A stretch of DNA of 32,664 nucleotides from positions 1-32,664 of IMG/VR virus record IMGVR_UViG_3300044730_000095, one strand, 5' to 3'. The DNA is from a virus. Numbering within the stretch: the stretch's first letter is position 1; each line of letters opens with the position of its first letter. Positions 1-32,572 of the stretch are shown here, piece by piece. The translations under genes were made by a program, and so were the position numbers. A model generated the notes under the pieces. The model was not told where the DNA came from and did not search any database. It was given only the letters and a program-made list of their open reading frames with translations.

Positions 1-10
1 GGGACATTGC
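1..10. repeat. Terminal direct repeat, left copy
   Basis: The first ten bases, gggacattgc, are identical to the last ten of the window. The match cannot be extended, because seven G residues precede the motif at the right end. This fits a circular or circularly permuted molecule, or cohesive ends read at both termini. Confidence 0.8.
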
Positions 11-216
11 CATGAGCCTGCCAAAGAAACGAGCCGCAGCGTGCAGCCAGCCATGCCAACCAAGCGTCACGACGGGGCTGAGCGTCGTTGGGTGTCGTTG
101 CTGTCGTTTGGCATCGTTTCTGCCAAACGGTGGTCGTGCAGCGTGGACGATGGTCGTTTGGCATCGTTGCTGTCGTTGTGCGTCGTTGGGCGGGATTAGG
201 TCTGTTTGTGGCACGC
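1..216. other. Non-coding junction region, candidate cos/packaging site
   Basis: This stretch holds no gene I can support. With positions 32573-32664 it forms a gap of about 300 bases between the HNH endonuclease and the small terminase gene, where cos sites lie in many HK97-like phages. The plus strand is rich in T and G and contains repeats: gtcgtttggcatcgtt occurs at 103-118 and 153-168, and gttgctgtcgtt at 97-108 and 166-177. An inverted repeat, cgtttggca at 105-113 and tgccaaacg at 121-129, could form a 9-bp stem. Plus-strand reading frames here are biased by the repeats and have no ribosome binding site that I can see. Confidence 0.45.
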
Positions 217-618
217 TTACTGTGCTGCGCTGTGTTGCGTTGGATTGTTGGTTGGCACGATGGGGAGGGGCTGTGGGTTTGCACGCAGCAGAGGCGATTG
301 TGGGCGTTCTGCAGGCGTTCTATTGCCTCTGCTGGAGTTGCATGACCTATGGGCGGCGAGCAGGGGACTGTTGATGTCTGCTGGGATGACATGGTCGGCG
401 GTCCATGGGTCGTTGGCACGCTCTCCGTGTCCGCAGAGCCAGCAGACTGTGGCTGTAGCCCGTACCTGTTTGGCACGCTTGCGATACGCGGCGTCGTAAT
501 GGGGGCGGTGGCGCTTTGCGGTGCGTGCAGTCTCGTGCTTGGCATGGCATGTCTCGCAACGGCTGCCGTGCGTCTGCAATGTGCCGCAACGCAGGCAGGA
601 CTTGGGTGGCTTTGGCAT
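217..618 (-). CDS. HNH endonuclease
   Basis: This 133-residue protein has an N-terminal Cys pair set (C8, C11, C21, C24) that probably binds zinc. An HNH core follows: CWLC at 59-62, ADHV with H76, and H90 with the downstream CN and RGN residues. HNH proteins next to the terminase genes take part in cohesive-end cutting and packaging in HK97-like phages. On a circular map this gene lies directly upstream of the small terminase, which supports that role. The C-terminal 35 residues are proline- and asparagine-rich and look disordered. The start ATG at 618 has only a G-rich stretch in front of it. A homing HNH enzyme is the alternative, but the location favours a packaging function. Confidence 0.85.
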   Translation of the reverse strand: MPKPPKSCLRCGTLQTHGSRCETCHAKHETARTAKRHRPHYDAAYRKRAKQVRATATVCWLCGHGERANDPWTADHVIPADINSPLLAAHRSCNSSRGNRTPAERPQSPLLRANPQPLPIVPTNNPTQHSAAQ

Positions 619-635
619 GTGTGCCGCCCCGGGGT

Positions 636-1190
636 CTATGGGTGTGCCAAAGCGAGGAACTCTGCTCTAACGGTGGGGTCGGTGCGCATCACGCCAACCA
701 AACTGCTTGTCACCATTGTCCCAGACTTCTTGATGCCACGATTGCACATGCATGAATGGTTGCCACGCACAACAGCCCCACAACCCAACGGGGCTAGGTG
801 CTCTTGCATGGCTTCCGTCAGTTGGTTGGTGAGCCTCTCCTGCACCTGCAACCTTTGGGCGTAAGCATCAACGAGCCGTGCCAACTTGGACAATCCCACC
901 ACACGGGCTGTTGGCACATAGCCGATGGTGACATGTCCTGTGAATGGCAGCATGTGATGCTCGCACACGGAAGCGAACGGCACATCACGCAACACAACCA
1001 TCTCGTCATACGCAACATCAAACGAGGTGGACAGAATGTGCGCAATGTCTGCGTCGTAGCCCTGTGTCATCTCCAGCCACGCCTTTGCGACACGGTGAGG
1101 AGTCTTGATAAGTCCGTCTCGTTGTGGGTCCTCACCAATCCACCTGAGCAAGGTACGGACTGCTGACTCGGCTGCGTCTTTGTCTGCCAT
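636..1190 (-). CDS. folE: GTP cyclohydrolase I
   Basis: The 184-residue product matches the full length of GTP cyclohydrolase I, which converts GTP to dihydroneopterin triphosphate, the first step toward preQ0. Diagnostic motifs are CEHHMLPF (C76, H78, H79), GLSKLARLVD near 99-108, QERLT near 117-121, and the downstream HSCMCNRG containing C147, the second zinc cysteine. The start overlaps the queE stop as TAATG, so translation is probably coupled. It sits with queE, queD and queC, which indicates 7-deazaguanine rather than folate synthesis. The family identity is clear; the pathway assignment comes from the neighbours. Confidence 0.95.
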   Translation of the reverse strand: MADKDAAESAVRTLLRWIGEDPQRDGLIKTPHRVAKAWLEMTQGYDADIAHILSTSFDVAYDEMVVLRDVPFASVCEHHMLPFTGHVTIGYVPTARVVGLSKLARLVDAYAQRLQVQERLTNQLTEAMQEHLAPLGCGAVVRGNHSCMCNRGIKKSGTMVTSSLVGVMRTDPTVRAEFLALAHP

Positions 1191-1942
1191 TAGATGCCTC
1201 TCTTTGAGCCGTATGCAAGGACATGCATGCGTGGTGTCAAGTTGTAGCCGTAATGAATGCAGTCGTCAAACACTTGCGGCAATGCGTCAAGTATCTCTTG
1301 TTGGCTGCGACCCTCTGGCATGAGGTACACATCTTGAGGGAACACGCCAACCTCTTGCGTGATGCCGTTGACTTGCATGATGCATGCTGGGGCTTTGACA
1401 ACGAACTTGAATGTGGCGCCCATCTCGTACAGCCTGCGCAACACATCAATCTTGATTGCGTCGTCTGCGGCTACACCGCTATTCCACAGTTTGGGTGACA
1501 CATTGAAGTGAACATCGTGTCCATGCGCCAACGGCTCCCAGCCATCCTCGGGCATGACAGTTCCGTTGGTTTCAATCTCTATGCGATGCCCGTCTGCAAT
1601 GAGGCGCTTGGCAAGGTCAAGCATGCTGCGCTGCTGCAACATTGGCTCGCCGCCTGTTATGACTATGAGGTTTGGTGCGACGCTTGTCTTGCAACGGTGG
1701 TACACATCATCAATTGACATGCGCTTGAGTTCAATCTGCTTCGAGTATGCGTAGCCATTCTTGCCTGTCCAGTCCCATGTGTAAGGCGTGTCGCACCAAC
1801 GGCAGTCAAGGTTGCACAATCCCAAACGAATGAAGAAGGCTGGCATGCCTTGGCTTGTTCCCTCGCCTTGCAGCGTTGGTCCAAACATCTCGCTGACGGA
1901 CAACATCCGACCAATCTTGACTGTTTCATCAGATTCGTTCAT
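1190..1942 (-). CDS. queE: 7-carboxy-7-deazaguanine synthase (radical SAM)
   Basis: This 250-residue radical SAM enzyme contracts the pterin ring of 6-carboxytetrahydropterin to give 7-carboxy-7-deazaguanine. The cluster motif is CNLDCRWC (C43, C47, C50 from the chosen start), preceded by the typical EMFGPTLQGEGTSQG segment, with ITGGEPM and IETNGT further on. I chose the ATG at 1942 because GGAG lies nine bases upstream; a GTG five codons earlier (1957) is possible. A 69-base gap separates it from the upstream 68-residue gene and carries a 15-base element shared with the dpdA leader. Its stop overlaps the folE start. Confidence 0.95.
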   Translation of the reverse strand: MNESDETVKIGRMLSVSEMFGPTLQGEGTSQGMPAFFIRLGLCNLDCRWCDTPYTWDWTGKNGYAYSKQIELKRMSIDDVYHRCKTSVAPNLIVITGGEPMLQQRSMLDLAKRLIADGHRIEIETNGTVMPEDGWEPLAHGHDVHFNVSPKLWNSGVAADDAIKIDVLRRLYEMGATFKFVVKAPACIMQVNGITQEVGVFPQDVYLMPEGRSQQEILDALPQVFDDCIHYGYNLTPRMHVLAYGSKRGI

Positions 1943-1959
1943 AAACACACGCTCCACGC

Positions 1960-1974
1960 TGCTCTAGGTTGCGA
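1960..1974 (-). promoter_or_regulatory. Repeated leader element, copy 1 (queE)
   Basis: On the minus strand this reads tcgcaacctagagca, identical to 4248-4262 in front of the first dpdA gene. In both places it is followed by a short spacer, GGAGCGTG and the start codon. It could be part of a promoter, an RNA-processing site or a translational control site. I cannot tell which. Confidence 0.5.
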
Positions 1975-2011
1975 CAAACCGACATGGTATGGGGTAATGG
2001 TGCGGCCACTT

Positions 2012-2218
2012 CTACACCGTTTCATTCAATCCCCACATCTGCTCAAGGCGCAAGATGCGCTGCCCCATGTCCTTGAACAGCGCACGAGTGACGATTGGTG
2101 CGTCATGAATGCTGACGCTTGTGCCTGTGTTGGACTCGTACTGCTCAATGTCAAGCAACGCCAACATCATCTCCTCAATCGTTTCGGGAACCATGTCCCA
2201 TGGGCGGTCGTGAGTCAT
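2012..2218 (-). CDS. Small hypothetical protein in the preQ0 block
   Basis: This 68-residue acidic, probably helical protein starts at an ATG that overlaps the queD stop as ATGA. A longer in-frame opening overlaps queD heavily and is rejected. No known motif is visible. The first half (VPETIEEMMLALLDIEQYES) is probably one helix. It lies between queD and queE, so it would be co-expressed with the preQ0 enzymes. Its function is unknown, and a role as a small partner or regulator is only a guess from position. Confidence 0.7.
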   Translation of the reverse strand: MTHDRPWDMVPETIEEMMLALLDIEQYESNTGTSVSIHDAPIVTRALFKDMGQRILRLEQMWGLNETV

Positions 2219-2667
2219 GTGATGACTGCTGCTGCGTTGCCGGGATGTTCTTTGACTGCGACTTTGGCAAGACGCACATCGTTCGCGTGTTGTGTGCTTG
2301 TTAGCCAACCATTGACGAAGGTTTGTATCTCGCATGCAATGGCTTCGCAGCCTGTGGCTTTCACAACTCGCACATCGGCAACGCCCAAGGCGTGTAGTCC
2401 AAGATGATGCAACTCATCCCACATGGGGTCATCAACCGCTAAGAGCATCTTGTGGTCATACATCTCGCCAAGGAACTCTTTGACGGGTTTCAATGAGCCG
2501 AAGTCAATCACCCAGTTGCGTGCGTCAAGAGTGCTTGCCTCAAAGGTCAACTCAACGCTGATTGCGTAGCCGTGAAGATACTTGCAATGACTATGGGCAC
2601 GCCATTGACGGAACACGCATGACAAGCCTTGTTCGTGCCCGTATGTCTTGACGACTTGGTAGCGCAT
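2215..2667 (-). CDS. queD: 6-carboxytetrahydropterin synthase, QueD-like
   Basis: The 150-residue protein belongs to the PTPS/QueD fold, which turns dihydroneopterin triphosphate into 6-carboxytetrahydropterin. Visible signatures are AHSHCKYLHGY (Cys28 in the catalytic position, H32), NWVIDFGSLK near 51-60, the DH pair at 71-72, and GCEAIA near 106-111. The usual HGH zinc motif reads HGY here, with Tyr34 in place of the second histidine. I believe this variant occurs in other phage QueD-like proteins. The gene starts two bases after the queC stop and overlaps the 68-residue gene. QueD is the best role given queC, queE and folE alongside. Confidence 0.88.
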   Translation of the reverse strand: MRYQVVKTYGHEQGLSCVFRQWRAHSHCKYLHGYAISVELTFEASTLDARNWVIDFGSLKPVKEFLGEMYDHKMLLAVDDPMWDELHHLGLHALGVADVRVVKATGCEAIACEIQTFVNGWLTSTQHANDVRLAKVAVKEHPGNAAAVIT

Positions 2668-2669
2668 GG

Positions 2670-3368
2670 TTAGCCCCGGGGGTCTGCGTAGTCGGGAGTC
2701 GCCAAGTATTGGGTTGGGTCTTGTACGCCAGCCTCTGCGAACGCTTCACGCCGCTCAAAGCATGTGCCGCATGAGCCGCAATGCATGTCACCGCCTTTGT
2801 AGCAACTCCAAGTCTTATTGAAGTCCACGCCAATGGCTGCGCCTTTGGCTGCGATGTCACCTTTGGTCCAGTTGAGGAATGGTGCAAGCACGCCAAAGCC
2901 TTTGCGTGCAAAGCCATCGGTGGCTACGCACAACATGGCATCAACCGCTTTGATGAAGGCTGGTCTGCAGTCTGGGTAGATGTAATGGTCGCCGCCATGT
3001 ACGCCTGTGGCAACATACTTTGCGCCTTCGGCGATTGCCAAACCTGCTGCAATGTTGAGCATGATGGCGTTGCGATTGGGTACGACTGTGATACGCATGG
3101 TCTGCTCTGCATAGTGACCATCTGGCACGGCAACATCGCTGCTGGTAAGACTGCTGCCTTTCAGCAAGCCTTGCAAGCCCGAGAGGTCAATGATGTCGTG
3201 TGGACTGCGCAGGTCGGCTGCGCATTGTTTGGCGTAATCAAGTTCCTTGCTATGGCGTTGCCCGTAGTTGAACGAGACAAGGTGCAACTCGTGTCCCTCG
3301 TGCCTGAGCATGTGTGCCAGCACAACGCTGTCCATGCCACCCGAAACGATTGCAACTGTCTTAGTCAT
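2670..3368 (-). CDS. queC: 7-cyano-7-deazaguanine synthase
   Basis: This 232-residue enzyme converts 7-carboxy-7-deazaguanine to preQ0 with ATP and ammonia. The PP-loop SGGMDS is at 9-14, followed by FNYGQRH near 33-39. The C-terminal zinc cluster has C189, C197, C200 and C203 (spacing C-x7-C-x2-C-x2-C). I chose the ATG at 3368 because GGGAGACA lies just upstream and the PP-loop then falls at the usual N-terminal position. It overlaps the end of the first dpdA by eight bases. No QueF follows, so preQ0 is the predicted end point of base synthesis. Confidence 0.95.
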   Translation of the reverse strand: MTKTVAIVSGGMDSVVLAHMLRHEGHELHLVSFNYGQRHSKELDYAKQCAADLRSPHDIIDLSGLQGLLKGSSLTSSDVAVPDGHYAEQTMRITVVPNRNAIMLNIAAGLAIAEGAKYVATGVHGGDHYIYPDCRPAFIKAVDAMLCVATDGFARKGFGVLAPFLNWTKGDIAAKGAAIGVDFNKTWSCYKGGDMHCGSCGTCFERREAFAEAGVQDPTQYLATPDYADPRG

Positions 3369-4233
3369 GTTGTCTCCCGATTGCTGTGATTGCGTCTCGC
3401 ATGTCCTTGATGATGGTCTGCACGAGATAGATGTGCATGCCATCAACCTTATCAGGACACTTGATTGCGCCATGTCTTTGACGCATGAACGACTCGTAGC
3501 GATGCCAAGAGGCTGCTGAGACTGCGATTGCGTCTTTGCGGTCAAAGCGATTGCGGTCTGCGAAAGCCCCGGGGTCCACACCGTAGCGACGGATGTGGCG
3601 TGCATGTTTGTAGATGGTTTCTGGTCTGCCAAGATGCAGGTTCTCCATTCGTCGCCCTGTCCAGCATGGGACTTGTCCGTAGCGTTGCCCGTTAGCCCAT
3701 GTGGCGGAGTCTGCGCTGTACCACGGCAGGCTGCCCAAGACTTTGGGATGTGTCATGCCGAAGGCATGGAAGCAGGTTTGATGCTGTTGTGTGCGCTTGA
3801 AGCATTCGGCTGCCCAACGATGGTTGCTTGACGATGCTGCGCCCACCATGCCACCAAGTCCGATGTACGGGTAATGCTCGGCGAGGTCATCCAGCACGCC
3901 AAAGTCCGTGCCTGTGTGGAACACGGGAATGACCTCAACACCATTGCGCTCCAGCCAGCGTTGATTGTCAAGAGTGGCATCAACATCTCTGATGACATCC
4001 AGATTGGATGCCACGGTGATGTGATGCGCCCACCGCTTGAGCCATGCCAAGTAATCCGCGCGGTCAATGCGCACACCTTTGGTCCACGCAGAGTACGCAC
4101 CAGAGTCCGCAAAGAGCATCGGCTTGGCAGGCAATCCATCCAATGCTGCGTCCAAGTCCCACGACTTGGCGAACCAATAGGACAACAGCACTTTCGGTGG
4201 TTGGGGGCTGTTTCGTGGTGTTTGGGTGGTCAT
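3361..4233 (-). CDS. dpdA: DpdA-like DNA 7-deazaguanine transglycosylase, copy 1
   Basis: This 290-residue protein resembles phage DpdA enzymes, tRNA-guanine transglycosylase relatives that exchange guanine in DNA for preQ0-type bases. The TGT-like fold shows in FADSGAYSAW at 41-50 (Asp43 matching the general-acid Asp of TGT), GLGGMVG at 125-131, and WYSADSATW at 171-179 (Asp175 in the nucleophile position). The Cys zinc site of bacterial TGT is not visible. A VDGMHIYLV segment lies near the C-terminus. The start ATG follows GGGAG at good spacing. It lies next to queC and is paralogous to the gene at 4729-5685. Catalytic assignment is by motif comparison only. Confidence 0.85.
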   Translation of the reverse strand: MTTQTPRNSPQPPKVLLSYWFAKSWDLDAALDGLPAKPMLFADSGAYSAWTKGVRIDRADYLAWLKRWAHHITVASNLDVIRDVDATLDNQRWLERNGVEVIPVFHTGTDFGVLDDLAEHYPYIGLGGMVGAASSSNHRWAAECFKRTQQHQTCFHAFGMTHPKVLGSLPWYSADSATWANGQRYGQVPCWTGRRMENLHLGRPETIYKHARHIRRYGVDPGAFADRNRFDRKDAIAVSAASWHRYESFMRQRHGAIKCPDKVDGMHIYLVQTIIKDMRDAITAIGRQHD

Positions 4234-4247
4234 AACACGCTCCCAGA

Positions 4248-4262
4248 TGCTCTAGGTTGCGA
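4248..4262 (-). promoter_or_regulatory. Repeated leader element, copy 2 (dpdA)
   Basis: This is an exact 15-base copy of 1960-1974 on the same strand, within the 31-base gap upstream of the first dpdA-like gene. The following GGGAGCGTG and start codon also resemble the queE leader. Its role is unknown. Confidence 0.5.
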
Positions 4263-4264
4263 GT

Positions 4265-4732
4265 TCAGGGCTGGTCTGCGGTCTGCATAGGGGAGCATGC
4301 AGGCAGCCGTCCTAGGTGGTGTTTCATTGCCTGCAGTTGATGCCCCATGCCCGACTTGCCGGGGTACAGGATGCCGTGAGGTTGGGCTGTGAATGGCGTG
4401 CGTACATCCGTCCACACTTGGCGTGCCATGCGTGCGTAGTCCGTACCAGCGACAACGATTGCTACCTGCTTGTCAATGTTGAGCGCCCGTGCCTGCTGCT
4501 GCAAAGTGGCAACGGTGACTGAGCCTGCTTGACCCATGCGCAGGTTGTATGGCTCAACAACCTTGTTGGCTGGCAATAGCCCGTACTTGGCAGACAGGAT
4601 GTAGATGCGATTGTCTGTTGCGATGCTGCGTGCCCACCTGCAAGCCGACTTGAAGTAAGAGCCTTGGTACAGGTCAATGGCTCGGCTTGGCACGCTGCGC
4701 TTCTTTGCGCCACACGAGATGACGACAATCAT
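4265..4732 (-). CDS. DUF6884-like protein
   Basis: The 155-residue protein begins MIVVISCGAKKR, followed by AIDLYQGSYFK and YILSAKYGLL. From memory these are hallmark segments of the DUF6884 family found in phages and bacteria, whose biochemical function I do not know. The start overlaps the stop of the second dpdA-like gene as ATGA, so the two are probably translationally coupled. Its position between two DpdA paralogues suggests a part in DNA-base modification. A nucleotide- or base-handling role is plausible from the alpha/beta pattern, but this is inference. An upstream in-frame extension overlaps dpdA and is rejected. Confidence 0.7.
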   Translation of the reverse strand: MIVVISCGAKKRSVPSRAIDLYQGSYFKSACRWARSIATDNRIYILSAKYGLLPANKVVEPYNLRMGQAGSVTVATLQQQARALNIDKQVAIVVAGTDYARMARQVWTDVRTPFTAQPHGILYPGKSGMGHQLQAMKHHLGRLPACSPMQTADQP

Positions 4733-5685
4733 GGCGTGATGCTGTTGGCTGCCCATTGCAGATGCTGTTTGGCACCGTCCACGAGGTACACATGCACGCC
4801 ATCGGGTCGGCTTGGGCAGGTGACTGCGCCATGCCTGCGCCGCAGGTGCGACTCGTATGCGTGCCACGACTGTGCGCTGACTGCGATTGCGTACCGTTGG
4901 TGATAACGCCCACGGTCTGCGAGACATGCAGGGTCAACGCCATAACTGCGAATGGTGCTGGCGTGCTTGTAGATGCTTGGCGTGTTGCCGATGCGCACCT
5001 TGACGAACTTGCGCCCGACCCACACATCAAGCGCACCATAGCGGTGTCCGCTTGCCCACGATGACGAGTCCACGCTGTACCAAGGCAACGATTCAATGAC
5101 CTGCTTGCGTGTCTGCCCAAAGCCGTGAAACGCTGTGCCGTGTTGGCGTGTGCGTCGCATGCACTCTGCCGCCCACTTGAGGCACGCTGCTGCACTGCTA
5201 CCAACCATGCCGCCAAGAGCAATGTAGGGATACGACTTGGCAAGGTCATCTAGCACGGTGAAGTCGCTGCCCGTATGAAAGACAGGAATCGGCTGCAATC
5301 CCTCACGCTCCAACAAGCGTTGATTGGCTGCTGTAGCCCCGGGGTCACGGATGACATCCAGATTGACATAGGTGGTGATGATGTGCGACCAACGCTTCAA
5401 CCAATCGGCGTACTCTTTGACCTTAACCTCTGCGCCTTGCGTCCATGCGCTGTATGCGCCAGAGTCGGCAAACACCATTGGCTTGGTGTGCATGCCATCA
5501 ACAAGCGCATCCAAGTCCATTGACTTGAAGTAGTGGTACGACAGCAGGAACTTGGCAGGTTGTGCGTCGTTGCCGTTCAATGCGACCATGCCGTGCCTCG
5601 CCGTAGATGGTGCTGCGGCTAGGTAGATGTGTAGCCCGTCAGGCGTGTGAGCCGAATGCGTCAATGAGGTTGGCGATTCGCTCAT
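4729..5685 (-). CDS. DpdA-like DNA 7-deazaguanine transglycosylase, copy 2
   Basis: This 318-residue paralogue of the gene at 3361-4233 keeps the same landmarks: VFADSGAYSAW with Asp74, ALGGMVG at 156-162, and WYSVDSSSW at 202-210 with Asp206. The chosen start at 5685 has GGGAGA nine bases upstream and overlaps the end of the ParB-like gene by 47 bases; an ATG at 5589 is an alternative. Residues 14-23 (TPDGLHIYLA) repeat the C-terminal PDGVHVYLVD motif, as if the N-terminus carried a remnant of another copy. Retained catalytic aspartates suggest both paralogues are active, perhaps with different target motifs. Confidence 0.85.
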   Translation of the reverse strand: MSESPTSLTHSAHTPDGLHIYLAAAPSTARHGMVALNGNDAQPAKFLLSYHYFKSMDLDALVDGMHTKPMVFADSGAYSAWTQGAEVKVKEYADWLKRWSHIITTYVNLDVIRDPGATAANQRLLEREGLQPIPVFHTGSDFTVLDDLAKSYPYIALGGMVGSSAAACLKWAAECMRRTRQHGTAFHGFGQTRKQVIESLPWYSVDSSSWASGHRYGALDVWVGRKFVKVRIGNTPSIYKHASTIRSYGVDPACLADRGRYHQRYAIAVSAQSWHAYESHLRRRHGAVTCPSRPDGVHVYLVDGAKQHLQWAANSITP

Positions 5686-6259
5686 CGTCGGTGTCTCCCT
5701 CTAGCGCGGACCACATCTCTTGCCAACGCTCGTAGGTGGGCAATGTCACCTTGACTTTGATTGTGCCTGTGAAGTCGTCGTCGGTTGGTGCGCCAATGTC
5801 GGCAATCACCTGCTCAAGGTTTGGTGGCTCAAGCAACGCAATCAGGTCATCAAGGTCTGATGGCTCGTAGAGCGTGCCATCAAGCGTGTCGTTCATGACC
5901 ATGTGCTTCAACAAGTCAAGCAACGCTTGGTCGTCGTAGGTGGCAAGGTCGTTGGCTTTGTTGTCCGCCAACAGAATGCGAATGGCATCCTCCTCGTTGC
6001 AATCAACAAAGGTGACTGCAATCTTTGACCAACCCAAGGCTTTGGCTGCCTTCCATGTGTGGTTGCCTGCCAAGATGTGATTGGTTGCTTTGTGCGCAAC
6101 GATTGGGCGATACTGCCCGTTGGCTTCAAGGCTGCGGCTGATGGTGCCAATGTCGCCTTGGCGAACATTGCGTGGATGTGGCTTGATGCTGTCAATGGGT
6201 TGCGCCAACTTCTCTAACTCTTTGCGAACCTTGTGGGTCTGTCCTTGGGTCTTTGCCAT
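5639..6259 (-). CDS. ParB/Srx-like nuclease domain protein
   Basis: The 206-residue protein carries the ParB N-terminal/sulfiredoxin-like fold: PIDSIKPHPRNVRQGD at 21-36, a GNHTWKAAKALG segment near 65-76 and LLADNKANDLA near 97-107. In phages such domains often sit beside DNA methyltransferases or other modification genes; here the neighbour is a DpdA-like enzyme. The C-terminal half is acidic and ends in a short helical region. The ATG at 6259 lacks a clear Shine-Dalgarno sequence, but an upstream in-frame start would run into the hairpin at 6299-6335. DNA binding or cleavage is likely; partitioning is unlikely because no ParA is present. Confidence 0.85.
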   Translation of the reverse strand: MAKTQGQTHKVRKELEKLAQPIDSIKPHPRNVRQGDIGTISRSLEANGQYRPIVAHKATNHILAGNHTWKAAKALGWSKIAVTFVDCNEEDAIRILLADNKANDLATYDDQALLDLLKHMVMNDTLDGTLYEPSDLDDLIALLEPPNLEQVIADIGAPTDDDFTGTIKVKVTLPTYERWQEMWSALEGDTDDERIANLIDAFGSHA

Positions 6260-7737: not shown

Positions 7738-8670
7738 TCACCACCTGCGGTCGCCGTAGCGACCCATGCCGAACTGTCTGTCCAATGCATCACGGAGCGT
7801 GTCCGTCTCAAGGCGGTCTGCAATCTCTTCCTCTATCTCCGCCTCAAGCAACATCTCCAATGTCATCTGGTCTGCCTCGCTCTGCGGCTTCGGCAGGTCT
7901 TGGCGTGTCGTAGGTGCGCTGTAGGTGCTGCGCTTCGTGTAATCGGGAAGCCTGAACTTCCACTCACGAACCAAATCCACCTGTTGCGTCTCTGCAATGT
8001 TGCCGTTCTCGCATCGCATGTATGTCCCCTCGGGCAACACATGCACCACATCCAACTGCAACTTGCAACGCTTTGCAACCTCACGGACAATGCTCTCCGT
8101 GCTTGCGCCAATGATGCTGCCACCTTTCGTCATGCCCAACACGAGAGGGCTGGACTGTAGGCGTGCAACATGCAGACGCTGCTTGGCGTCGCCTGTGCGC
8201 AACCAGAACAAGGCTGCTCCGCCACGCACCTTTGCGAGACGCTGTCGCAACTTCAGGTCCTTGGGTCCGTGTGCAATCAAGGCAAAGATTGCCTCGCTGT
8301 CCACTTCGCCTTTGCGCTTGTACCCGTCGCACATGCGAATCAACTCGTCGTCGTTGCTGCAATGCCCGTTGTGGACTCCCACAACACCGCTTGCATCAAT
8401 CGGATGGTTGTTCACCTCATGCTTCGGGCTGCCTTGCGTTGCCCAGCGTGTGTGGACAATGCCTGTCGTGCCGATGCTGTCATCCAACTGTCGTGCGAGC
8501 ACGCTGCCTGCGAGCGCCGCCTTCTGGATGTAGGTCTCTCCGTCTGTGCTGTGCCACGCAACGCCGCTGGCGTCACGACCACGAACCTCTAGGAGACGCA
8601 AGAGGTGTTGTGCAACCAATCGGGGGTCGCACTCACCTCCCACTATCTGGAATGCTCCGATTCCACACAT
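7738..8670 (-). CDS. Class II glutamine amidotransferase
   Basis: The 310-residue protein is an Ntn-type glutaminase. Cys2 follows the initiator Met (MCGIGAF), with RGRDASG at 30-36, HTRWATQG at 73-80, NNHP at 87-90 and VHNGH at 99-103, as in PurF and GlmS. It releases ammonia from glutamine. No synthase domain is attached: the C-terminal 80 residues are charged and helical. The start is fixed because Cys must be residue 2. The gene lies 37 bases after an amidoligase-like gene, the pairing described for phage and bacterial amidoligase systems. Supplying ammonia to QueC or to preQ0 amidation is an alternative. Confidence 0.92.
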   Translation of the reverse strand: MCGIGAFQIVGGECDPRLVAQHLLRLLEVRGRDASGVAWHSTDGETYIQKAALAGSVLARQLDDSIGTTGIVHTRWATQGSPKHEVNNHPIDASGVVGVHNGHCSNDDELIRMCDGYKRKGEVDSEAIFALIAHGPKDLKLRQRLAKVRGGAALFWLRTGDAKQRLHVARLQSSPLVLGMTKGGSIIGASTESIVREVAKRCKLQLDVVHVLPEGTYMRCENGNIAETQQVDLVREWKFRLPDYTKRSTYSAPTTRQDLPKPQSEADQMTLEMLLEAEIEEEIADRLETDTLRDALDRQFGMGRYGDRRW

Positions 8671-8707: not shown

Positions 8708-9898
8708 TTATCGGTTGCGATTGGTTGGGATGTTGCCTGCACGCTGGATGAGGTACTCAAACAACTCTGTCGTGATGAGTCCGTTCACCATCATGCATTG
8801 GCATAGACGCTTGAATGCGTCGGCTGCGCTCTGCCGTGTGTTCGGAATGGTGATTGGCGCATCGGCTCCGCTTGCGTCGCAATGCGTGCTGCCGTGATGC
8901 CATGTGCCATCCACATCCACGCCCGAGCCGTTCCAAAGCATCATCTTGTTGGTGAGTCCTCGTTGCACGCACAACTTGGCGTAGTCAAAGAACGCAAGGT
9001 TGAACGCCACCCACGCTGCTGCATTCGTGCCGTTCAACGAGCCGTGGTGCGCTCGCAACTCAAAGGTGCCGTGGCGACCAAAGGCTGCAACATTCAGAGC
9101 GTAGTAGCGATTCTGCATACCAGCCCACGACCGCAGGCTGTCATTGTTCCACGACTCGCTCTCCCACTCTTGCGCCAACTGCTCGGTCGCCGTTGCGCTG
9201 CGCAAGCGTGCCCACGAGTTGTTGATGCGACGCTCCAGCACCATTGCGGTCATCGCCCATTGCCAGCCGTGGTAGAGGCGGATGACTGCTGCCTGCTCTT
9301 GGCGTGTCAATGCGCCATCAACTCCGATGTGGATGTGCATGCCGCATGACTCGTTGATTCGTGCGCCAGCATCTCGTAGCACCTTCATCACCGTGCGCAC
9401 CTCTGCGAGACCCTCTGTGCCTCGCAAGACTGGGCTGACCACTTCACATGCTCCGTTGCGTCCACGCAACGAACCATCTGGGACAACCTTCCACTCTGGC
9501 ATCGTGCGATGTGTGTAGCCAGGTCGCTCACAATGGACTCCTGCTCTTTGCAATGCTGATGCTGCTTGCCAGTCCAACAACCCGACACACTCAATCTCAA
9601 TGCCGAAGGTCAATGTGCTTGTCGTCACCCACGACTCCAAACTGTCCACCGTCATCACTCGTGTGGACTGCCCACCGTTGGCGTTGGGCATGCTCACTCG
9701 GATGCTGCGTGGTGTGCGAGTTGGAATCTCTGCGTCACGACCTGCGAGGCGCAGTCCGCCAATCCATGCGTACCTCGCCGTGCCAGCGTCTGCGTATCCA
9801 CACGCTTCGGCTATCTCACGGAAGGTGCTTCCGTTGTCTCTCATGGCGAGGGCGGTGATGTACCGCTGCCTCGTCTCTGGTGTCATCTGCTGTGGCAT
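8708..9898 (-). CDS. Amidoligase-like (COOH-NH2 ligase) protein with N-terminal HTH
   Basis: This 396-residue protein matches the Amidoligase_2 family, glutamine-synthetase-fold ligases predicted to form amide or isopeptide bonds with ATP. Motifs are TFGIEIECVG (97-106, metal-binding Glu residues), WKVVPDGSL (136-144), CEVVSPVLRG (151-160), CGMHIHIG (185-192) and TFELRAHHG (278-286). Residues 1-50 look like a small helix-turn-helix (FREIAEACGYADAGTARYAW). The start follows AAGGAGACAGAC. The next gene encodes a class II glutaminase, so ammonia transfer to a carboxyl group is a likely chemistry. The substrate is unknown; it could be a capsid, a cell-wall peptide, a host protein or a small molecule. 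Confidence 0.85.
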   Translation of the reverse strand: MPQQMTPETRQRYITALAMRDNGSTFREIAEACGYADAGTARYAWIGGLRLAGRDAEIPTRTPRSIRVSMPNANGGQSTRVMTVDSLESWVTTSTLTFGIEIECVGLLDWQAASALQRAGVHCERPGYTHRTMPEWKVVPDGSLRGRNGACEVVSPVLRGTEGLAEVRTVMKVLRDAGARINESCGMHIHIGVDGALTRQEQAAVIRLYHGWQWAMTAMVLERRINNSWARLRSATATEQLAQEWESESWNNDSLRSWAGMQNRYYALNVAAFGRHGTFELRAHHGSLNGTNAAAWVAFNLAFFDYAKLCVQRGLTNKMMLWNGSGVDVDGTWHHGSTHCDASGADAPITIPNTRQSAADAFKRLCQCMMVNGLITTELFEYLIQRAGNIPTNRNR

Positions 9899-30630: not shown

Positions 30631-32118
30631 TCACCATACTTTCTCTATCGTAGGCAGGACCGTGCTAGTGGCTCTGCGTGTTGCTCGGTCTAACGCCATG
30701 CACAATGCGATGGCTGCGTCAATCTTACGCCTTGACTTACCTTTGGAGAGCCGCCATCCGTTGTCCGTCATGCGTTGCGCTGCAGACAGGACTTGGTCTG
30801 TGAACATTGGCGAGCCATCGTGGATGACTTTGCCTTGCACGATGAGGTCGTATGCCGTACCGCAGGCTGGAATCATGCGTTGGCTTGATTGCGGGAACTC
30901 CACCATTGGCAACCCGTCGTCGTAGAGTGCCTCTGCGCTGCGTTGAAAGAACGCTGGGTCGTATGCGAACTCTTGCACCGTCAAGGTGTCTCGCAGGTGG
31001 CGTAGGTGCATCTCTACCTCTGCGACATCCATTGCGCCCATGTCTGGATGCCAGATGCGTGCCTGTGTTGCAATGCGACCGTCATCCCGGGGCTGTGCGA
31101 CGACGACTGCAATGCTGTCGTGCTTCAACGCCATGTCAATCCCAACCCAACATGGCAGGTCGGGGTCAAGTGTTGCATCTCCAAGCAGCCTCTCCCATGC
31201 ACCAACGGGCAACCAAGACTCTTGTGTGCGCACCCATTGATTGAGACGGAACCTGCGGAACGCCATCTCGCTCGTCTGCTTCATGGCAACTTCCATGTCC
31301 TCGGGGTCAAGCAGATGCTGTGCAAGGTTGGGATTGGCACGCTTCCATTGGCTGCGGTCTGCAATGTCGCAGTCCGCTTTGGCTTCCCACCAATAGAACC
31401 CAAAGGTCTCATCATCCATCTCGCCTGTTGATACGGACTTGCCGTAGTTGTAGAGGCGACCACAGAGCGTGTCCAAGTCAAAGCCTGCGGTGGTGATGCC
31501 AACCACCAACGGGTCTTGTCGTGCGCCCGAGCCAAGCGTCAACGCATCCCACAGGTCGTCGTTGGGCTGCACATGCAACTCGTCAAAGATGACCAACGAT
31601 GGGTTCAAGCCCTGCTGCAGTTTGCCATCGCTTGACAGCACACGATAGACAGCGCCGAAGCGTGGCACCTCAATCGCATCCCGATAGACCTTGCACTCCG
31701 ACGACAACATTGGTGACGCAAGAATCTGAGCCTTGGCTTCACCAAACACTATGCGACCCTGCTGGCGATCTCCTGCTGCCGAATAGACCTCTGCGCCGGG
31801 CTCGCCAGCAAACAGACCGTAGAGAGCAAGCGCAGAACCCATCAATGACTTGCCCTGCTTGCGAGGCAAGCCAATCAGCGCACGACGAAAGCGCAATCTG
31901 CCATCATCACGACGCTCAAGCAATCCATTGAGCATCCACTTCTGCCATGTTGTGAACTCCAATGGCGCACCAGCCATCACGCCTTTGGTGACGGTCAGCC
32001 ATTGCTCTGCGAACTGTGCAACCAAGTCACCGTCTGTGCTTCGTGACTTGCGTGGAACGAAGTAGGTAGGCGACCACGCCTTACTTGGCAGTAGTGCGCT
32101 TCGCTGAGACTTTGTCAC
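30631..32118 (-). CDS. Terminase large subunit
   Basis: The 495-residue protein carries ATPase motifs GLPRKQGKS (Walker A, 83-91) and VIFDE (Walker B, 176-180), and RNase H-like nuclease motifs (GIDMALKHD near 328-336, KIDAAIAL near the C-terminus). It drives packaging and cuts DNA. The start is a GTG at 32118, which overlaps the small subunit by 38 bases; I see no strong Shine-Dalgarno sequence, so the true start may differ. The family resembles HK97/phiC31-type terminases that cut at cohesive ends. Confidence 0.94.
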   Translation of the reverse strand: MTKSQRSALLPSKAWSPTYFVPRKSRSTDGDLVAQFAEQWLTVTKGVMAGAPLEFTTWQKWMLNGLLERRDDGRLRFRRALIGLPRKQGKSLMGSALALYGLFAGEPGAEVYSAAGDRQQGRIVFGEAKAQILASPMLSSECKVYRDAIEVPRFGAVYRVLSSDGKLQQGLNPSLVIFDELHVQPNDDLWDALTLGSGARQDPLVVGITTAGFDLDTLCGRLYNYGKSVSTGEMDDETFGFYWWEAKADCDIADRSQWKRANPNLAQHLLDPEDMEVAMKQTSEMAFRRFRLNQWVRTQESWLPVGAWERLLGDATLDPDLPCWVGIDMALKHDSIAVVVAQPRDDGRIATQARIWHPDMGAMDVAEVEMHLRHLRDTLTVQEFAYDPAFFQRSAEALYDDGLPMVEFPQSSQRMIPACGTAYDLIVQGKVIHDGSPMFTDQVLSAAQRMTDNGWRLSKGKSRRKIDAAIALCMALDRATRRATSTVLPTIEKVW

Positions 32119-32566
32119 GGAATGTTTGTAGTGCGTCTGTTGATGTTGATGCGATACCGAGTCTGGCTCTGTCCGTTGGCGTGAACCCTAACTGCGCCAA
32201 GTTAGATGCAATCTGTTTCTCAAGCGCACGAAGCGCAGCACGCTCACGCCAATCAAGACCAATGCGGAACATCCTGTCTCGTAGCAATGTGCGCTCATCG
32301 GTCTGCTCGCACACAAGCATCACCAACTCAACATCCATGTCACGACGCAACCAAGGCGATGCAGAATCCCAGACAAGTTGCCAAAGTTGACCGCCAGCCC
32401 CGGGACTGCCATCAGGCTTCTTCATCAACGGACGATGAGGTTCGGGAATCCCGTTGTCATCAACAGTTGGCATAGGCACGACTGTCAGCGTGGGAAGTTT
32501 GCGACCACCTGGGTTGCCAATCCTGCGCTTCTGCTCAACGGGCTTGGGTGGTCTGCCAACAGCCAT
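32081..32566 (-). CDS. Terminase small subunit, P27-like
   Basis: The 161-residue protein begins MAVGRPPKPVEQKRRIGNPG, the basic N-terminal region typical of P27-family small terminases, followed by helices with WDSASPWLRRDMDVELVMLV and FTPTDRARLGI. It recognises the packaging site. The ATG at 32566 has GGTGA six bases before it; an ATG at 32572 is possible. It overlaps the large subunit start. Upstream lies the candidate packaging region. Confidence 0.88.
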   Translation of the reverse strand: MAVGRPPKPVEQKRRIGNPGGRKLPTLTVVPMPTVDDNGIPEPHRPLMKKPDGSPGAGGQLWQLVWDSASPWLRRDMDVELVMLVCEQTDERTLLRDRMFRIGLDWRERAALRALEKQIASNLAQLGFTPTDRARLGIASTSTDALQTFRDKVSAKRTTAK

Positions 32567-32572
32567 AAGCAT

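Follow-up and report, generated by a model that had tools for sequence, protein, structure and literature searches.

Tandem DpdA-like genes and a candidate DpdC-like gene in a predicted phage 7-deazaguanine DNA-modification operon

Results

The window analysed here is the whole 32,664-base IMG/VR record IMGVR_UViG_3300044730_000095. It carries a single tight operon (636-6259) in which two predicted DNA-guanine transglycosylases of the DpdA type, designated DpdA_a and DpdA_b, are encoded together with the enzymes of preQ0 (7-cyano-7-deazaguanine) synthesis. All of the genes lie on the - strand, overlapping or nearly so, in the order ParB-like, DpdA_b, DUF6884, DpdA_a, QueC, QueD, a 68-amino-acid (aa) open reading frame (ORF), QueE and FolE. 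An initial annotation had recognized a phage 7-deazaguanine DNA-modification block in this region, a description supported by the gene identities and DpdA fold reported below, and had left two operon members, the DUF6884 and ParB-like genes, unmentioned. Judged from its gene content, the operon very probably performs 7-deazaguanine DNA modification. Loci used for comparison are given L-numbers and are mostly IMG/VR contigs (L006 is 3300010885_004131; L032 is Arthrobacter phage Sonali).

DpdA_b (4729..5685, 318 aa) and DpdA_a (3361..4233, 290 aa) both matched the phage DpdA families phrog_887 (4.3e-54 and 1.5e-48, respectively) and phrog_7068 in PHROGs. Both are of the phage type and scored weakly against the NCBIfam and PADLOC DpdA models, while no Pfam model was matched at E 0.1, and profiles of DpdA and DUF6884 found nothing when searched against PDB sequences. 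AlphaFold2 models of the two proteins were confident (predicted local distance difference test scores of 89.9 and 85.2), and their best Foldseek matches in the PDB were tRNA-guanine transglycosylases (TGT; probability ~1.0, TM 0.4-0.5, ~10-13% identity), so neither paralogue falls outside the TGT fold. With both proteins placed in phage DpdA families, both predicted to have the TGT fold and both genes on the same strand, the earlier claim of two DpdA-like transglycosylases within one operon-like run was upheld. In an alignment of 23 homologues the aspartate motifs DSGA and DS(S/A)(S/T)W and one histidine were invariant, and both window copies keep all of them. The aspartates are D43 and D175 in DpdA_a and D74 and D206 in DpdA_b, which we take from established TGT knowledge to be the general base and the nucleophile. 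H156 of DpdA_a is invariant in this alignment and may correspond to the histidine separating DpdA from DpdA2 (position 196, published numbering). Short GxHxYLA/V motifs (GLHIYLA, GVHVYLV, GMHIYLV) were also observed at the N and/or C termini of the window DpdAs and in up to ~4 copies in relatives (L004, L020, L024, L030), including the Rosebush-type enzyme; the motif is perhaps a binding peptide.

A tblastn search found DpdA of the window type at 237 places in 234 of 50,697 phage records (0.46%). Only three of these 234 records contained two places, corresponding to the Microbacterium phages Megan (two records) and Nicole72, which agrees with the earlier statement that known phages usually have one DpdA. 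Ten IMG/VR contigs also held two-DpdA cassettes (L006, L020, L021, L022, L023, L024, L026, L076, L087, L109). The two-DpdA layout is not unique to the window: Microbacterium phage isolates have it too, as do some ten further IMG/VR contigs. Both aspartate motifs were observed in both copies of the IMG/VR pairs, with the exception of the second L087 copy, which reads CDSITW where the others have DSS. Used as the only query, DpdA_a recovered no confirmed relative from viral contigs, while alignment-based scans did find relatives. Within the limited set of literature searched, neither a DpdA pair nor a viral DUF6884 linkage was found described, and the Nicole72 paper mentions the preQ0 genes and not the DpdA pair. 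In Arthrobacter phage Sonali, gene 81 (990-1607, 205 aa) is annotated as DpdA-like, has no Pfam match and is additional to the cassette DpdA (gene 87).

In a tree built from 35 DpdAs, the window and L006 pairs grouped with the single-copy enzymes of L003, L004, L005, L010, L013, L014 and L019 in a clade of 11 rows (97/93), while the pairs of Megan/Nicole72, L020/L022/L023, L021/L026 and L024 were placed elsewhere. A topology uniting all second copies as one clade was rejected by the approximately unbiased (AU) test (p = 8.5e-6), ruling out one ancient duplication behind all DpdA pairs; duplicated DpdAs arose several times independently in related phages. Grouping the four window and L006 DpdA rows as one clade was not rejected (p 0.17), and the window pair would have originated before the window and L006 lineages separated, either through local duplication or through a gene taken up from a close relative. 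Identity between copies a and b of the window was 56-58%. Over the window and L006 together, values were 64% for a-a, 75-76% for b-b and 56-60% for a-b, and DpdA_b was ~70% identical to the single DpdA of L003. The initial annotation had called the two genes divergent, apparently intact paralogues. Intactness stands, as the catalytic residues are kept, and strong divergence does not, given 56-58% identity and an equivalent pair in L006.

Nonsynonymous divergence between the window and L006 (dN) was 0.34 for copy a and 0.22 for copy b against a synonymous divergence (dS) of ~2, near saturation, and on these values both copies are under purifying selection. Twelve derived changes were counted in copy a at sites kept in copy b and the single copies, and two in copy b relative to the single copies, the two counts resting on slightly different comparison sets. 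The copy-a sites include A174, A/T177 and T178, which flank the nucleophile D175, as well as positions 20-21, 52, 75 and 125, near other conserved strand ends, and may alter specificity. In the window lineage copy b is ancestral-like and copy a is the derived copy.

The gene between the two DpdAs (4265..4732, 155 aa, - strand) encodes a protein with a DUF6884/YaaA-like (DUF328-like) domain containing CxxxK and LSAxxG motifs, here proposed as a DpdC-like dPreQ0 hydrolase. It matched PF21818 at 8.6e-22 and PF03883 at 4.2e-5, the latter below cutoff, and its matches to the PADLOC DpdC models were weak (2e-6 to 2e-3, best model PDC-M57A). The start of this gene overlaps the DpdA_b stop by ATGA, and because the overlap is also kept in L003 and L006 we infer that the two genes are translationally coupled.

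A search of IMG/VR that used an alignment of three DUF6884 sequences and took no account of DpdA returned 75 viral DUF6884 loci. A DpdA lay within 4 kb at 39 of the 75 and at 32 of 46 after 90% identity reduction, proportions biased toward linked loci because the search patterns came from cassette-linked sequences; for comparison, a DpdA of the window type is present in 0.46% of phage records. Most of the 39 linked loci hold further cassette genes, in various orders. Of the remaining 14 loci of the 46, L050 and L111 hold other genes of the cassette and eleven group in a single clade, whose members, in the cases checked, carry a QueD-like gene at a distance of ~3 kb. C7 and K11 of the CxxxK motif were invariant in 31 of 31 aligned DpdA-linked homologues, 30 of which matched PADLOC DpdC. 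A QueD-like gene was observed ~3-4 kb downstream of DUF6884 in L054-L056, L061, L063-L066, L068, L069, L073, L077-L079, L086 and L088. No DpdA of the window type was in view at these contigs, and this group possibly has another inserter subfamily.

The preQ0 pathway is complete in the window, and the route from GTP to preQ0 through FolE, QueE, QueD and QueC proposed by the initial annotation was confirmed for all four proteins with Pfam, PHROGs and NCBIfam, QueD and QueE being below the NCBIfam cutoffs. FolE (GTP cyclohydrolase I; 636..1190, 184 aa) matched PF01227 (1.1e-66) and, above cutoff, TIGR00063. QueE (7-carboxy-7-deazaguanine synthase; 1190..1957, 255 aa) has a CxxxCxxC motif and matched phrog_2076 (2.9e-60) and TIGR03365 (6.6e-25, below cutoff), while QueC (7-cyano-7-deazaguanine synthase; 2670..3368, 232 aa) matched TIGR00364 above cutoff (5.9e-55) and contains SGGMDS and Cys-rich C-terminal motifs. 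The 68-aa ORF between QueD and QueE (2012..2218) was taken from the ORF list and translation, and its longer ORF reading had no credible family match in Pfam or PHROGs. In three relatives (L003, 11203-12084; L004, 10925-11800; L005, 10727-11605) FolE has an extra N-terminal phosphoribosyltransferase-like domain with a DDLVDSGKT-type motif, which the window and L006 proteins lack.

The QueD-like protein (2215..2667, 150 aa; PF01242 6.2e-16, phrog_2389 1.4e-36) has a non-canonical zinc site. In the alignment, other residues stand in place of two zinc-ligand histidines out of the usual three (HGY for HGH, RQW for AGH), while C28, H32, D71, H72, E108 and E140 are retained. This FRQWRA...HGY variant is common to the window, L004 and L005, whereas the QueD of L006 and L003 is short and has the canonical HGH motif, which means that queD was swapped within the cassette. 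As three diverged phages retain the variant, we assume it to be functional.

The first gene of the operon (5639..6259, 206 aa) encodes a ParB-like protein (ParB_N 5.8e-6; phrog_8071 4.9e-40) and overlaps the DpdA_b start. A ParB-like gene was also observed upstream of DpdA in most related loci and in phages Finch, Sonali, Nadezda and Nicole72. PADLOC gave no DpdB match for the window protein, only MTase_II models. By analogy to the position of bacterial DpdB, the ParB-like protein is a candidate DNA-handling partner.

An HNH gene (217-618) follows FolE. One end of the window (1-618) holds this HNH gene and the other (30631-32572) terminase genes; as HNH precedes terminase in L005, L006 and L014, the record resembles an almost complete genome of ~33 kb in permuted form. 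A scan of bacterial genomes for a host gave distant matches only and no clear host.

Discussion

The explanation that we favor, with a probability of roughly 0.55 for the whole, combines a two-DpdA operon, a DpdC-like step and distinct jobs for the two inserters. Through this operon the phage would replace part of its guanines post-replication. FolE, QueD, QueE and QueC would, by homology, make preQ0 from GTP, and both DpdAs are predicted from fold and conserved residues to swap DNA guanine for preQ0 by means of the catalytic aspartates D43/D74 and D175/D206. The DUF6884 protein, linked to the cassette, would like bacterial DpdC hydrolyse the dPreQ0 nitrile to dADG (7-amido), probably via its invariant cysteine, and the ParB-like protein may help DpdA engage DNA, as DpdB reportedly does. 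The second DpdA, acquired before the L006 split by duplication or from a close relative, would have been kept for a different job, most likely another sequence context of the target guanine and less likely another base. The expected outcome would be a genome protected against more restriction enzymes.

With respect to the modified base, the minimal set of FolE, QueD, QueE, QueC and DpdA leads to dPreQ0 in Rosebush and CAjan, with dPreQ0 at ~28% of G in Rosebush DNA, and a fused Gat-QueC makes dG+ in phage 9g (PMC6884629). The initial annotation had reasoned that without QueF preQ0 or a derivative is the expected base. The absence of QueF was borne out, and no Gat fused to QueC was met in the window, but with a DpdC-like DUF6884 gene lying between the DpdAs, dADG is no less likely an end product than preQ0; dADG, dPreQ0 or both remain. 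The DUF6884 domain has been assigned to dpdC of bacterial islands (PMC11888242), and DpdC, called an amidohydrolase by Hutinet et al. (PMC6884629), is described under the name DUF328/PF03883 as hydrolysing dPreQ0 to dADG (PMC12839542). We see about even odds that the DUF6884 protein works like DpdC in hydrolysing dPreQ0, and do not file it as a DpdC member; our expectation of dADG as the main end product is equally balanced.

Several observations weigh against the explanation that we favor. DUF6884 proteins from phages without a linked DpdA, used as a control, score similarly weakly for DpdC. The family is broad; most isolate phages with DUF6884 are mycobacteriophages, and a linked DpdA was not found in the DUF6884-bearing mycobacteriophages checked. 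According to the Pfam authors, DUF6884 may act in DNA repair or bind DNA (PMC11701544). Two canonical zinc ligands are missing from QueD. The single DpdA of CAjan modifies both GA and GGC (PMC8306585), so two motifs need not mean two enzymes, and a second copy could simply raise dosage. Since the control proteins show that the PADLOC scores are not specific, a DpdC identity from those scores alone was dropped, and the DpdC-like argument is carried by genomic linkage.

Two other views of the end product were considered. One, a credible but somewhat less probable account, is that the product is dPreQ0 and that the DUF6884 protein, instead of catalysing a pathway step, helps DpdA by binding DNA or through regulation, as would fit the five-gene set that suffices in Rosebush and CAjan, the YaaA-like DNA-binding cleft of the family, with one member linked to DNA lesions (PMC11701544), and its presence in phages without a nearby DpdA. 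Such a helper role is harder to reconcile with a Cys and Lys kept in every DpdA-linked homologue aligned, with linkage to cassette genes in many orders, and with a bacterial DpdC that is described with this domain (PMC11888242) and as hydrolysing dPreQ0 (PMC12839542). The other is archaeosine (dG+), made by a stand-alone class II Gat (7738-8670) acting with QueC as a split Gat-QueC. That gene does encode a class II Gat domain with an N-terminal Cys, and fused Gat-QueC proteins are known from 9g, where dG+ is made, and from Megan. However, it adjoins an Amidoligase_2 gene (8708-9898; 6.1e-29), the amidoligase-Gat pair is kept in L003, L004, L006 and Arthrobacter phage Laroye, and no Gat-QueC was observed among the DUF6884-linked loci. 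Because the Gat gene travels with the amidoligase, the split Gat-QueC was rejected and dG+ is highly improbable.

For the DpdA pair, different target contexts for DpdA_a and DpdA_b agree best with the repeated origin of pairs, with both copies being constrained and with where the changes in copy a lie, and we give this reading an even chance; the several origins of duplicated inserters suggest that the second copy has a job of its own. Support for the different motifs or bases suggested by the initial annotation is indirect and comes from these same features. The main rival, in our judgement rather unlikely, is redundancy, in which the duplicate raises the dose and the enzymes differ neither in their sites nor in the base they install. 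Keeping copies in tandem within an operon increases dose easily, the two proteins are 56-58% identical with identical catalytic residues, and one DpdA can serve two motifs, as in CAjan (PMC8306585). Redundancy accounts less well for copies that stay distinct across the window and L006 (a-a 64%, b-b ~75%, a-b 56-60%) or for 12 derived sites in copy a, several adjoining the nucleophile, and repeated independent origin and retention fit specialization better, without excluding dosage. In eukaryotic TGT (QTRT1/QTRT2), one subunit is catalytically dead. An obligate heteromer of this kind, with one catalytic and one binding subunit, would suit tandem genes of similar length, which could give equal expression, and TGT enzymes are active as dimers (PMC6884629). 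In the window neither copy has lost an aspartate, which is also true of the remaining pairs in the alignments and, in addition, of L076 and L109, and the close relatives L003, L004, L005 and L019 manage with one DpdA. The heteromer idea of the initial annotation is weakened in its dead-partner form, which we rejected since the catalytic residues are kept in both copies here and in nearly all pairs inspected, and an obligate heteromer in general seems improbable.

A more specific version of distinct jobs, which we advance only tentatively, is that the two DpdAs may read different contexts or insert different bases, with the DpdC-like DUF6884 protein coupled to one of them, giving a two-part modification pattern; the repeated evolution of two-inserter 7-deazaguanine systems in actinophage-type viruses would be part of this same tentative reading. 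If true, some sites of a single genome could possibly carry dPreQ0 and others dADG. Natural DpdA pairs differing at a dozen sites, several of them at the active site, offer ready comparisons for the determinants by which DpdA picks its guanines. Such pairs could also give tools to place different 7-deazaguanines at chosen motifs, and the DUF6884 linkage supplies a testable viral candidate for the enzyme of the amide step.

Comparison with known systems

The Rosebush-type cassette (Arbiter, JN618996) resembles the window in its DpdA-QueC-QueD-QueE-FolE-terminase order on one strand with a regulator-like gene leading, and in the terminal GxHLxLA motifs of its DpdA, and dPreQ0 has been measured in Rosebush. 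It differs in that a single DpdA is present and no DUF6884 gene separates it from QueC. The cluster EC phages Megan and Nicole72 share with the window a ParB-like gene, two tandem DpdAs, QueC, QueD, QueE and FolE, but their DpdA pair is independent on the tree and they have no DUF6884; the QueC of Megan is a Gat-QueC fusion, and dG+ is therefore expected there. The closest match is L006, with the same gene order including DUF6884 between the two DpdAs and orthologues of both copies, differing in that QueD is replaced by the short canonical HGH type. Escherichia phage CAjan likewise has a phage DpdA with a preQ0 pathway, in another gene order and with one DpdA for GA and GGC sites (PMC8306585). 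Bacterial Dpd islands (DpdA-DpdB-DpdC) have in common with the window a TGT-like inserter, a ParB-family protein and a DUF6884/YaaA-like protein, while the window DpdAs are phage-type and its ParB-like protein lacks a PADLOC DpdB match. Restriction genes dpdD-K were not seen among the annotated window proteins, the PADLOC scan having covered the cassette genes.

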